A stretch of 64,000 nt of DNA, from NCBI GenBank assembly GCA_026014665.1, contig JAOZHX010000012.1, positions 52,956 to 116,955 on the forward strand, given 5' to 3'. Positions 1,001-44,874 of the stretch are shown here, in pieces. The stretch comes from Candidatus Bathyarchaeota archaeon. Lineage in GTDB: Archaea; Thermoproteota; Bathyarchaeia; Bathyarchaeales; Bathycorpusculaceae. Below the pieces are notes generated by a model. The model was not told the DNA's origin and did no database searches. It worked only from the letters and a program-made list of their open reading frames with translations. The first letter of the stretch is position 1. Every line of letters starts with the position of its first letter. The translations under genes and the position numbers were made by a program.

Positions 1001-1216
1001 CTTGCAACCGTACGTGGAGATAAAAACAAACTCAACATGCTCCCACACCAACACCGCAAATGCTTCAACACGCAGCCATGCAGAACATGTGAGAAAAAGC
1101 CATACACCACACCGAAACAGGCAAAGAAAAACAATACAGCCACAAAAAGCAGACGCGCCCATTTGCCGTCTTGTGGCAACCACAAACCCGCTACATCCAC
1201 ATAAAGAGAGAAAGCG
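1001..1216 (+). repeat. Dispersed repeat family, copy A (divergent)
   Basis: Copy A of a three-member family (others at 18673-18932 plus strand and 44600-44874 minus strand). It begins CTTGCAACCG directly after the hicA stop and ends near CACATAAAG at about 1206-1216. Shared blocks include ACATGCTCCCACA, CATGTG, TTGCCGTCTTGTGGCAACCAC and CCACATAAA. Over its last 86 bases it aligns without gaps to copy C. Relative to copies B and C it has lost about one base near 1091-1100, breaking the otherwise conserved reading frame. No plus-strand gene follows directly; acdB converges on it. Confidence 0.75.
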
Positions 1217-1918
1217 CTATTCTAGTATGATTCTTGCGTCGACTACTTTTGCGCCCTTCTCATAAACCATTATGGGGTTGAGGTCAAGTTCTTTAATTTC
1301 GGGATAATCCATCACCAACCGCGACACATTGCAAAGGATGCCCACGAGCGCGTCGATGTCAGCGGGCGGCGTGTTGCGGTAACCCCGAAGAAGCGGATAA
1401 GCCTTAACCTGCGTAATCATCTCTTTGGCATCCTCAACCGTAAGCGGAGCCACACGAAAACTGACGTCTTTAAGCAACTCCACAAAAATCCCGCCCAACC
1501 CAAACATCACAGTCTGCCCAAACTGCGGATCCTTCACCGCACCAACAATAACCTCAGTGGATTGCGGCGCCATCTCCTGCACCAAAACACCCACAATCTT
1601 CGCGTCTGCCCTAAACTTTTTAGCGTTCTCAACAACCTTAACATACCCACTGGCAACCTCAGCAGGCGTCTTAAGGTTAACCAAAACCCCACCCACATCC
1701 GACTTATGAACAATATCAGGAGAAACAACCTTTAAAACAACAGGATAACCAATTCGACCAGCCAAATCCACAGCCTCAGCCACCCCACCAGCAACACCAA
1801 ACCTAGTAACCGACACCCCATAATCCACACACACAGCCTTAGCCTCACTCTCCAACAACACCACCCTACCCTCACCCCGAACCCCCCTAAAAACATCAGC
1901 AACACTACCCAAACACAC
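1217..1918 (-). CDS. acdB: Acetate-CoA ligase (ADP-forming), beta subunit
   Basis: 233 residues forming one ATP-grasp domain of ADP-forming acyl-CoA synthetase, which makes ATP from acetyl-CoA (or other acyl-CoA), ADP and phosphate in archaeal fermentation. Landmarks are 'LLESEAKAVCVDYGVSV' at the N-terminus, 'GYPVVLKVVSPDIVHKSDVGGV' (the nucleotide-binding and phospho-His-accepting region), 'GLGGIFVELLKDVSFRVAPL' and C-terminal 'ELDLNPIMVYEKG'. The length fits the separate beta subunit; the alpha subunit is not adjacent. The GTG at 1918 follows an in-frame TGA directly, so it is the first possible start. A TATA-like CTTTATAG lies upstream (complement of about 1965-1972). The first 60 codons are nearly devoid of C on the coding strand. 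Confidence 0.92.
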   Translation of the reverse strand: MCLGSVADVFRGVRGEGRVVLLESEAKAVCVDYGVSVTRFGVAGGVAEAVDLAGRIGYPVVLKVVSPDIVHKSDVGGVLVNLKTPAEVASGYVKVVENAKKFRADAKIVGVLVQEMAPQSTEVIVGAVKDPQFGQTVMFGLGGIFVELLKDVSFRVAPLTVEDAKEMITQVKAYPLLRGYRNTPPADIDALVGILCNVSRLVMDYPEIKELDLNPIMVYEKGAKVVDARIILE

Positions 1919-18672: not shown

Positions 18673-18932
18673 CTTGCAGCTTGATTGTTCTTGTGGAGAA
18701 AAAACCAGCCGACACATGCCTCCACATCCACACCGCGGCGCCTTCAACATGAACCCATACTGCTCATGTGGTGTAATTATCTTGTGCCACACCATAACAG
18801 GCGCTGGAATGAACCGCAATCCCAAAGAACAATCATCCTCTTTTGCCGTCTTGCGGCAACCACAAAACCGCCACACCCACATAAAACCTATAGCTCAAGT
18901 GCCCATTGAGGTAAGTAAAAAATACGCGATTG
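18673..18932 (+). repeat. Dispersed repeat family, copy B
   Basis: Copy B begins CTTGCAGC and runs past CCACACCCACATAAAA to about 18932, in a 600-base gap that otherwise has no gene. A perfect 7-bp stem pairs TGTGGAG (18692-18698) with CTCCACA (18720-18726); in copy C the last pair is A-T instead of G-C. A second stem of eight pairs joins 18767-18774 with 18789-18796. A hairpin TTGCCG/CGGCAA lies at about 18844-18860. A frame through it, MPPHPHRG to RHTHIK (57 codons), aligns with copy C without a gap. An open frame also exists on the other strand. The element points towards the Sm-like gene at 19203. Confidence 0.8.
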
Positions 18933-19202: not shown

Positions 19203-19625
19203 TTGTCTGTAGCACAGAGAAAATACTTCACTGAAGTGGCAGCGTTAGCCGATAAGATTGTCGCTGTCACAACAACTAACGGCAAAACATTCAACGGCAC
19301 ACTCATAGGCATAAACCCTGACAATTTAAGCCTCACGTTAGCGGACGTTAAAGATGAGTCTGGAAAGCTCCTCAACCGCCTAGTTCTCAACGGTTCAGTC
19401 GTCATGTCCATATCCAGTTCAGAAAAACCCTTCGACCTAAAGGCCCTCTCACAGAGACTAGAAAAAGTTTTCCCAACCATGGTTAAACTCTATGAAGACA
19501 AGGGCTTCATCTGGGTCATGGACAAAGTAAAGCTAACCGAAAAAGGCGTGGTGGAAGGTTCCGGACCAGCAGCGGAACGAGTACAGAAAGTCTATGATGC
19601 ATTCATGAGCGAAGCCAAGGCTTAA
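19203..19625 (+). CDS. Sm-like (LSm/SmAP) RNA-binding protein with C-terminal extension
   Basis: 140 residues from a TTG start preceded by AAGGAGAG at 19187-19194. Residues 10-75 show the Sm fold: 'VAVTTTNGKTFNGTLIGINPDNLSLTL' (Sm1, with the 'D-x-x-N-L-x-L' turn) and 'RLVLNGSVVMSIS' (Sm2). The remaining 65 residues form a mixed domain ('LEKVFPTMVKLYEDKGFIWVMDKVKLTEKGVVEGSGP') as in the long archaeal SmAP3-type proteins. It forms rings binding U-rich RNA. A distance of about 270 bases separates it from repeat copy B, which has the same orientation. Confidence 0.9.
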   Translation: MSVAQRKYFTEVAALADKIVAVTTTNGKTFNGTLIGINPDNLSLTLADVKDESGKLLNRLVLNGSVVMSISSSEKPFDLKALSQRLEKVFPTMVKLYEDKGFIWVMDKVKLTEKGVVEGSGPAAERVQKVYDAFMSEAKA

Positions 19626-43649: not shown

Positions 43650-44060
43650 TTACTCTCCGTTGTTTTGGGAGCTTATGATTTCTCCGCCTGCTTCTTTGAC
43701 TTTTTCGGCGGCTGATTTTGAGTAGGCTTCGACTTCGATGGTGAGGGGTTTGGTGATTTTTCCAGTGCCTAGGAGCTTTGTGTAACCTAACTCTGTGAGG
43801 TTGATTTTTTCGCCTTGGGCGATTTCTTGGACTTTGCTCAGGTTTATAATTTGTTCTTTGCGGTGCAGGCTTTTTGGTGAGGTGAAACCGCTTTTTCCAA
43901 AGTAGCCGGGTTCGGTTGTTACGATTTTGCTCCAGAGGTGTTTGTGGCGTCCGACTTTTCGGTTGCCTTTGCTACCGCTGTCTCGGTGTTGACCGATTCT
44001 ACCGTAACCGACTGTTCTTGTGCCTCTTAATTTTCTGATTTTTCTTAGTTTATGTGGCAT
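43650..44060 (-). CDS. rpl15: 50S ribosomal protein uL15
   Basis: 136 residues. The archaeal/eukaryotic L27a-type start 'MPHKLRKIRKLRGTRTVGYGRIGQHRDSGSKGNRKVG' is split over a Gly/Arg-rich extension; 'GYFGKSGF' and the C-terminal 'AYSKSAAEKVKEAGGEI' are conserved. The ATG overlaps the end of the sHSP gene by 11 bases. It is followed by secY, as in other archaea. Confidence 0.95.
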   Translation of the reverse strand: MPHKLRKIRKLRGTRTVGYGRIGQHRDSGSKGNRKVGRHKHLWSKIVTTEPGYFGKSGFTSPKSLHRKEQIINLSKVQEIAQGEKINLTELGYTKLLGTGKITKPLTIEVEAYSKSAAEKVKEAGGEIISSQNNGE

Positions 44061-44511
44061 TGTAGTCAGCTTCTCTTGCTGTTGTTTCAGCTTTTTTTAG
44101 TCTGATTTCGAGCACGCCATTCTTGTATTTGGTGTGCATTGCGTTTGGAATCACTACCTTCGGCAAATTTAAACTTTTATAGTATCTGCGATCTTTTGTT
44201 TTTGCCGACAGCGTTAATTTCTGGTCTTTCACATTAATCTTGAGGGTTTCCTTATTAAAGCCTGCGATTTCGGCGACGACTGTTATATAGTTGTTTTCTT
44301 GGAAAATGTCGATTAGGGGGTTTGGTTCTTCAAATTTTCGTTTGGCAAAGCTTTTGGATGGGCGAAAACTTTCACCATGTATTGTTTTTGAATGGTAGCT
44401 TTTTTGGGATGTTTTTGTTTTTCTTGGTTTTTCTATGGTGTCAAAATCTAACCATTTACGTTTTTTGTCGCTTCTTCTCCATCGTGCGCTCGTGTGAGTT
44501 TCCCCCTCCAA
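44050..44511 (-). CDS. Small heat shock protein (alpha-crystallin domain)
   Basis: 153 residues. The first 65 residues are basic and low-complexity ('RWRRSDKKRKWLDF', 'KPRKTKTSQKSYHSK'). The alpha-crystallin domain occupies about 66-145: 'PLIDIFQENNYITVVAEIAGF', 'LKINVKDQKLTLSAK' and the diagnostic 'YKNGVLEIRLKKAE'. The TTG start at 44511 is the only start codon before the conserved region, and GGAGG occurs just within it. It overlaps the uL15 gene, so it is apparently the first gene of the ribosomal/translocon operon here, an unusual position. The typical C-terminal IxI motif is not seen. Confidence 0.85.
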   Translation of the reverse strand: MEGETHTSARWRRSDKKRKWLDFDTIEKPRKTKTSQKSYHSKTIHGESFRPSKSFAKRKFEEPNPLIDIFQENNYITVVAEIAGFNKETLKINVKDQKLTLSAKTKDRRYYKSLNLPKVVIPNAMHTKYKNGVLEIRLKKAETTAREADYNAT

Positions 44512-44599: not shown

Positions 44600-44874
44600 A
44601 TGAAAATGGCGATTTTGCGCTCTTTTTGCCTTTTCATTTCAATGGATGCTTGCCTCATAAGCTTTATGTGGGTGTGGCGGTTCTTGGGCTGCCACAAGAT
44701 AATTTGTATTTGTGGTTGCTTTTTGGGGTTGCGTTGTTTTTCTGGGTCTGTTGTGGTGTGGCATAGGCGTCTTCTACCACATGCGGTACATGGCTCTATG
44801 TTGTCGGCGTCAGGGTGTGGTTGTGGAAGCATGTGTCGTTTGCTTTTTTTCCACAAGAGCCTCTAGCAGCAAGA
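44600..44874 (-). repeat. Dispersed repeat family, copy C
   Basis: Copy C reads on the minus strand from CTTGCTGC (complement of 44867-44874) to the region opposite CGATTTTGCGC. The 7-bp stem pairs TGTGGAA (complement of 44849-44855) with TTCCACA (complement of 44822-44828); relative to copy B one G-C pair has become A-T. A second stem TGTGGT/ACCACA has G-C where copy B has G-T. A frame from MLPQPHPD to RHTHIK has 57 codons, the same as copy B, with CxxCG and a following Cys-His. The copy lies just upstream of and in the same direction as the sHSP gene. It and flanks fill the gap 44512-45055, where no gene is otherwise seen. Confidence 0.8.

Follow-up and report, generated by a model that had tools for sequence, protein, structure and literature searches.

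The repeat that has three copies in the window, that is, in the whole stretch of 64,000 nucleotides analysed here from a contig of a Candidatus Bathyarchaeota archaeon, is best explained as a module spread by transposons, with a core that is constrained at the nucleic-acid level. More specifically, the window copies belong to a dispersed family, and we propose, tentatively and with somewhat less than even confidence, that its non-coding, transposon-spread core is a docking site for a putative DNA-binding protein. The initial annotation was right that the three copies (A, B and C) are real and related beyond chance: with copy B as the query against the assembly of the window itself (G000; 2.37 Mb in 36 contigs, in which the window copies carry coordinates on contig C4), we obtained 41 matches, among them copies C (E 1.2e-22) and A (E 7.3e-12). 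Its count of only three was far too low. A sequence-only model built from 27 copies (R1) gave 88 matches in G000 at E ≤ 1, from which 82 were extracted, six shorter than 150 bp were dropped and 76 were kept; because only 150 of 906 candidates were scored, the figure of 76, all of them 150 bp or longer, is a lower bound. One of these copies (C4:52448-52620) lies about 335 bp to the left of the start of the window, and some copies are carried at contig ends, for example at both ends of C27.

What all copies have in common is a core of 172-173 bp, running from ACATGC to CACATAAAG, with a high content of A and C (0.69 in a sample of 28 G000 copies) and a mean identity of 65% between copies from different genomes; the spans of 215-275 bp given originally contain, besides this core, flanks that are common to some copies only. 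In copy B, the core occupies 18714..18886 on the forward strand (C4:71669-71841; model R1, E 9.5e-38) and is preceded at 18687..18713, also on the forward strand, by a 5' extension containing TTCTTGTGGAGAAAAAACCAGCC, which is of the same type in most copies fetched from relatives (alignment A2; the 100-copy model R2, built on it, covers C4:71643-71841). The core of copy A, at 1035..1206 on the forward strand (C4:53990-54161; R1, E 9.5e-31), ends about 11 bp from the stop codon of a converging gene for an ATP-grasp protein (1217..1918, reverse strand; PF13549, E 5.3e-85), and that of copy C lies at 44662..44834 on the reverse strand (C4:97617-97789; R1, E 7.6e-34). The ATP-grasp gene served as the probe for site A in the comparisons described below, as did the neighbouring genes for an Lsm-type protein (19203..19625, forward strand; PF14894, E 5.4e-18, and PF01423 at 21.7 bits, below its cut-off of 23.4) for site B and for an Hsp20-like protein (44050..44511, reverse strand; PF00011, E 7.1e-9) for site C.

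Searches with model R2 found the core in 14 of 32 genomes of the genus (E ≤ 1e-5) and in 15 of 201 genomes sampled across the class, which fall into two of 84 genera and a single family (E ≤ 0.001), with copy numbers in carrier genomes from one to at least 76. One exact 35-base degenerate pattern, which decayed or variant copies would escape, matched five contigs among named genomes, all from Candidatus Bathyarchaeota, and none among viral contigs; searches of an open-access library brought up no paper on the repeat. The main analyses used 146 copies, 70 of them from relatives, including 25 of at least 48 in the genome designated G018 and 21 of at least 36 in G006. Among the loci retrieved, one whole contig of 4009 bases (L203, G013:C54) has both ends inside inverted core copies and carries genes that, by eye, look like purS, purL and purQ, so that the assembly seems to be broken at the repeat on either side. 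In two others (L201 from G013 and L202 from G077), a fuller copy is preceded by a truncated one with the same orientation, at a distance of 850 and 750 bp, respectively; the truncated matches stop at positions 134 and 140 of the model. Finally, two G000 copies, C10:80168-80340 and C10:58706-58878 (L060 and L065), share an identical 82-bp left arm and differ at two positions in the core, while their right arms differ, as if gene conversion had copied the left arm together with the core.

Substitutions are distributed unevenly along the core. On a tree of 143 copies (three near-duplicates having been dropped from the 146), the terminal branches hold 2313 substitutions, or 13.4 per column if spread evenly, and 30 of the 172 columns have three or fewer, compared with 0.13 expected from a Poisson distribution; because models built from the family were used to find the copies, strongly decayed copies are under-represented and the apparent constraint is inflated. 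When the columns were ranked on the internal branches alone, 262 terminal substitutions fell in the conserved third, compared with 1228 in the variable third, and the ratio of the two lay between 0.15 and 0.24 in every genome and between 0.11 and 0.23 in every class of 5' arm. This ratio is low in close and in distant pairs alike, and the bias against changes in box columns is already seen at low divergence, in G006, G018, G024 and G000 (9-20 differences). Insertions and deletions are rare, with 55 events against 6003 substitutions from the consensus in 146 copies, or 109 substitutions per indel. Strong constraint on terminal branches thus acts on the CCACA/TGTGG, CAACAT and CATG boxes and on their spacing, although it could predate insertion.

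The conserved elements, in order, are ACATG, CCACAYCCACA, CAACAT, CATG, GTGTGG, CCACAC, AACAG, AAAAAGCA, TTGTGG and CCACACCCACA, and the CCACA/TGTGG boxes among them can be followed along the forward strand in copy B. The first TGTGG box (18692..18696) lies in the 5' extension (alignment A2) and had been read as the 5' arm of a proposed stem 1. It is followed by the double box CCACATCCACA (18722..18732, an exact match; core columns 9-12 and 15-18, with 1-5 terminal substitutions against the 13.4 expected if even), a second TGTGG box (18767..18771; columns 53-56, 1-6 terminal substitutions), a CCACA box (18787..18791; columns 75-77, 0-3), a third TGTGG box, which reads TGCGG in this copy (18852..18856; columns 138-141, 1-4) and, at the 3' end of the core, the double box CCACACCCACA (18871..18881, an exact match; columns 164-167 with 1-4 and columns 158-161 with 7-12). 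No peak above the global null was found for the helical periodicity of the conserved columns (fraction 0.77; 0.03 for 10.5 bp taken alone).

Constraint of this kind might reflect a small protein, the candidate being a peptide of about 57 residues, rich in His and Cys, encoded in the frame that opens at the ATG of ACATGC. That frame had the fewest stop codons in the first 29 copies (20, compared with 25-57 in the others), a synonymous ratio of 1.13 (z 3.2) and slightly more variable third positions (0.96 compared with 0.87-0.89 bits), and the scarcity of indels would also suit a coding element. Against this, the synonymous ratios for 117 nearest pairs ran from 0.82 to 1.25 over all six frames with the maximum in a reverse frame, so that six-frame tests gave no codon-level constraint on the core; of 146 copies, 57 have an open ATG frame, nearly matched by 55 with an open reverse frame; and its stop codons, relative to shuffled columns, gave z values no lower than -1.5, whereas other frames went down to -5. 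Third positions A10, A16 and A43 of the ATG frame are highly conserved (5, 2 and 0 terminal substitutions), and a single protein search with one translation, a weak test for so short a peptide, produced no candidate. The coding reading is already disfavoured on these grounds, and we consider it very improbable.

The initial annotation had proposed instead a structured RNA with a covarying stem. For stem 1, the pairing of TGTGGAG with CTCCACA in copy B, and its A-T variant in copy C, are present in the sequence; the claim that the change is compensatory fails over 100 aligned copies, in which the closing pair is GU in 25, AU in 21, GC in 18 and UA in one, unpaired in 30 and gapped in five. The further hairpin, TTGCCG with CGGCAA, pairs in 62.0% of cells compared with 64.8% after shuffling. 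RNAalifold predicted nine pairs in 27 copies, none of them with compensatory changes, and in 145 copies (one near-duplicate dropped) the best column pair at least four positions apart scored 96.6, with E 0.93 against a null in which substitutions were re-placed along the FastTree tree; the overall maximum of 108 came from columns less than four apart. The three TGTGG/CCACA stems were paired in 84.9% of cells compared with 84.4% in shuffled alignments, a value reached by 44 of 500 shuffles, and had a covariation score of 0.142 compared with 0.131, reached by 14 of 500, a marginal excess of a size that kinship alone, without structure, can give. A covarying RNA was accordingly rejected from RNAalifold on both strands, the tree-null test of 145 copies and the tests of the named stems: in 100-146 copies we found no covariation beyond the tree null, and stems at most marginally better than shuffles, the outcome that the initial annotation had itself named as refuting a structured RNA. 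In Rfam 15, the only match of the window at gathering score was a tRNA, and ten plus five further loci gave a tRNA and otherwise sub-threshold matches (IS009, E 0.16; sR5, E 0.63; RNase MRP, E 0.27).

An RNA with sequence-conserved hairpins, or an unstructured RNA, may nevertheless be made, and several folding results lean that way. The consensus energies of the core lie far below those of column shuffles on both strands (-3.1 compared with 0.0 on the plus strand and -9.8 compared with -0.7 on the minus strand), yet they are small in absolute terms; the energies of individual cores are slightly below those of shuffled sequences (mean z -1.4 for 28 copies and -1.5 for 32, 60 being sampled in total); and arm II, described below, together with the core gave -12.7 compared with -0.4. 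The two arms of the TGTGG/CCACA stem at core columns 52-78 are about equally conserved. On the other hand, the second box of each doubled CCACAYCCACA, which is unpaired in the hairpin model, is conserved like the first or more so.

At least three kinds of 5' arm are found next to the core; the regular expressions used to assign them leave 80 of the 146 copies as 'other'. Arm II, with a TATA-like box, AAAATTGCTTATAGGG-type boxes and GGGCCATGCTAGTGCCC, is common to copies in several species. Seven of its 15 copies have a TATA-like hexamer in the interval from -140 to -120 relative to the core, all of them at -127 to -129, with only four further matches across the other bins, and identity between genomes is 0.75 in a 45-nt block of the arm compared with 0.65-0.67 in core or core-near sequence, although the copies were picked by a motif within that block. 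Such a promoter-like arm in some copies points to an RNA, and the fixed place of the predicted hexamer is the best evidence for an RNA gene. In G000, arm II was assigned to only two copies. No hexamer cluster is seen at the corresponding place in the 37 unclassed or the 35 arm-III copies, yet the G000 cores as a whole, and those of these copies, are constrained.

That the family is mobile, as originally suspected, is borne out in the relatives, which show terminal inverted repeats, an insertion sequence and short elements that share those ends, the short elements having no recognisable core, and presence or absence at orthologous sites. The observation that terminal inverted repeats are missing holds for the window copies and fails for the family. 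Both CAGTAGATCAAAA inverted repeats, at 10 or more of 13 positions, flank 17 of the 46 copies examined in G006 (6 of 21) and G018 (11 of 25), where shuffling gives an expectation of 0.00, and enclose units of 254-278 bp; one of four copies in G043 also lies between such ends. The definition of a miniature inverted-repeat transposable element (MITE), a short non-coding unit between terminal inverted repeats, thus applies to copies in relatives only, and the G018 and G006 units are of MITE type. Among the 74 G000 copies scanned (those at contig ends without flanks having been left out), none has both CAGTAGATCAAAA ends, three have both GCTCTGTCTC-like ends (0.05 expected), none of the three being in the window, and a scan for direct repeats as target-site duplications stayed at the null level; at one of the three, C13:235425, a 12-bp direct repeat adjoins the ends. 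As the inverted-repeat test failed for them, we do not class the window copies as MITEs.

An autonomous partner with the same ends is found in G018, where AGTAGATCAAAA occurs 40 times (reversed control, 0) and two occurrences, 1111 bp from end to end (C22:38858-39968), enclose a 347-residue protein with a DDE_Tnp_1 domain at or above its cut-off. The best match of this transposase is to NF033541 (E 4.3e-51), at 173.8 bits and thus below the curated cut-off of 225, so that the insertion sequence can be called ISH3-like only. The transposase was found in three of the 32 genomes: in G018, in G012, where the homologue is partial, and in G042, where the match is distant. It was not found in G000 or G006. 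The core forms no part of this insertion sequence. Moreover, three short elements in G018 (L177, L178 and L179; 171-175 bp) have exact CAGTAGATCAAAA ends around another interior that gave no match to the core model, one of them (L177) with a core copy (780-965) about 80 bp outside it. Since elements with those ends exist without a recognisable core, such an element seems not to need the core, which looks like a passenger. Some short elements may, however, be derived from core-bearing ones, as part of the core model is matched, at 12.4 bits, by one whose ends are degenerate (L189). The insertion sequence and the three short elements are flanked on both sides by TTAT or TTAA (four of four), while exact 4-bp duplications flank four of the 17 core-bearing units, which is not above chance (permuted mean 2.3; fraction 0.18). 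A separate motif, TAWAWAAGGGGAGGGG, adjoins some insertion sites, for example in the right flanks of L159 and L178; it has 31 matches in G018, 21 in G043 and 12 in G010, with none for the reversed control in the same three genomes, is followed in several flanks by a GTCTATGGCAGAGCAAC-like stretch (by eye), and may be a promoter-leader type of the genus or a second repeat.

To follow individual insertions, 1.5 kb on either side of each window copy's neighbour gene was compared between genomes. At site A, the 3' end of the ATP-grasp gene, four of 30 loci (G000, G012, G024 and G043) have a core, and the four agree in side and orientation, with two weak same-orientation fragments in G015 and a weak opposite-strand match in G010. 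Site B carries a core in G000 only, among 30 loci; in G006, G016, G008 and G003, about 176-360 bp with no core separate the Lsm gene from the homologue of the 16537-17949 gene. Site C likewise carries one in G000 only, among 28 loci, save for a 13.7-bit match in the other orientation in G006. The four cores at site A are 0.63-0.71 identical with 0-1 gap columns, their left arms do not align, and their differences number 53, 107 and 172 in the conserved, middle and variable thirds, respectively. Their likeness (0.677) is no higher than that of random quadruples (0.673), so that shared descent at this site is argued from position alone; if it is one old insertion, its boxes have been kept in place. 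A syntenic pair in G000 (C13:138808 and C13:141884) was also compared with L044 as a possible shared insertion and was rejected, the copies being in different spacers.

The location of copies B and C upstream of genes in the same orientation does not extend to a rule. With genes taken as open reading frames of at least 90 amino acids, 142 of the 146 copies (those at contig ends without flanks having been left out) were split 41/38/33/30 over the four combinations of neighbour-gene orientation, and this absence of bias argues against a gene-linked leader, riboswitch or terminator, which we rejected. An open reading frame of that size overlaps 69 of the 142 cores, which may be explained by the C/A-rich sequence having few stop codons.

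The reading that we favour, a docking site for a putative DNA-binding protein, would run as follows. The ISH3-like transposase would move core-bearing units in trans, the core being dispensable for it, and the G000 copies would have dispersed by this or a related route, their recognisable ends having since been lost. The putative protein would read the boxes as DNA, whichever strand they are on and however they are oriented relative to adjacent genes, and copies that keep the boxes would be retained since such binding benefits the host or the element. Docking on DNA is favoured because the boxes occur on both strands, because boxes without a partner in the hairpin model show the same degree of conservation as those that can pair, because gene orientation is irrelevant and because copies without the promoter-like arm are also constrained. 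Counting against it are the target-site duplications of core-bearing units, which are not above chance, the overlap of 69 of 142 cores with an open reading frame, the promoter-like arm of some copies, the folding energies, and G000, which is without both CAGTAGATCAAAA ends and without the transposase. The main rival, which we regard as a doubtful though serious possibility, is a mobile family of non-coding RNA genes, SINE-like in its logic, with arm II plus core as the full unit. This unit would consist of a TATA-like promoter followed by a hairpin at the 5' end and a CA-rich body of about 300 nt, probably bound by protein, and copies lacking arm II would be derivatives. It would account for the placement of the hexamer, the conserved arm block, the folding energies and the three-stem covariation score, and has against it the lack of covariation above the tree null and of an Rfam family at gathering score in the window and the 15 other loci, together with the conserved unpaired box and the constrained copies without the arm.

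Alternatively, the repeat may be an ordinary selfish MITE family, in which the boxes are needed for transposition only, active lineages keep them and inserted copies decay freely. Inverted repeats, an ISH3-like partner, patchy spread, copy numbers from 1 to at least 76 and insertion polymorphism are all as such a family would have them. We think it unlikely, because elements with the same ends and no recognisable core exist, because the core is joined to at least three different 5' arms and because differences avoid the box columns at low and at high divergence, also among the four site-A copies. The partial match of L189 and the fold energies shift the odds slightly away from docking and towards both the RNA gene and the selfish MITE. 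A stronger form of docking, in which the module is useful to the host, comprises some eight phased CCACA/TGTGG boxes over roughly 190 bp (each doubled box being counted as two, and the box of the 5' extension included), is spread by exchanged transposon ends and is selected copy by copy as a mobile chromosome-organising site, seems to us a little more unlikely still.

Prokaryotic MITEs include SM1-SM4 of Sulfolobus solfataricus, of which SM2 and SM3 are present at 25-44 copies according to a review (PMC10969869), and our repeat is like them in being short, multicopy, without a coding signature and mostly intergenic; its G018 units also share inverted repeats with an insertion sequence. It is unlike them in that the conserved part is the interior, with the known ends not found in G000, in that the core has several alternative 5' arms, and in that the duplications around core-bearing units are not above chance. 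The G018 insertion sequence itself resembles the ISH3 family in its best match and in its TTAT/TTAA flanks, and departs from it in its sub-threshold score and in the core lying outside it. REP/BIME and similar bacterial repeats consist of short boxes, some in inverted pairs, arrayed between genes at dispersed sites, with a suspected role in binding host proteins; our repeat shares the intergenic dispersal, the short boxes and the inverted pairs, and differs in having a 172-bp unit with fixed spacing and about eight CCACA/TGTGG boxes. The pneumococcal BOX and RUP elements, small repeats of unclear role (PMC3049150), are similar in being small and interspersed.

As a rule, transposon-borne repeats decay after insertion, and it is the ends that identify them. 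In this family, the ends are disposable, and it is the interior that holds boxes and spacing across copies, with neither a codon signature nor covariation. If the copies are under selection, the family would be a useful module distributed by transposons in uncultured archaea, and its core would provide a defined bait for its putative protein.
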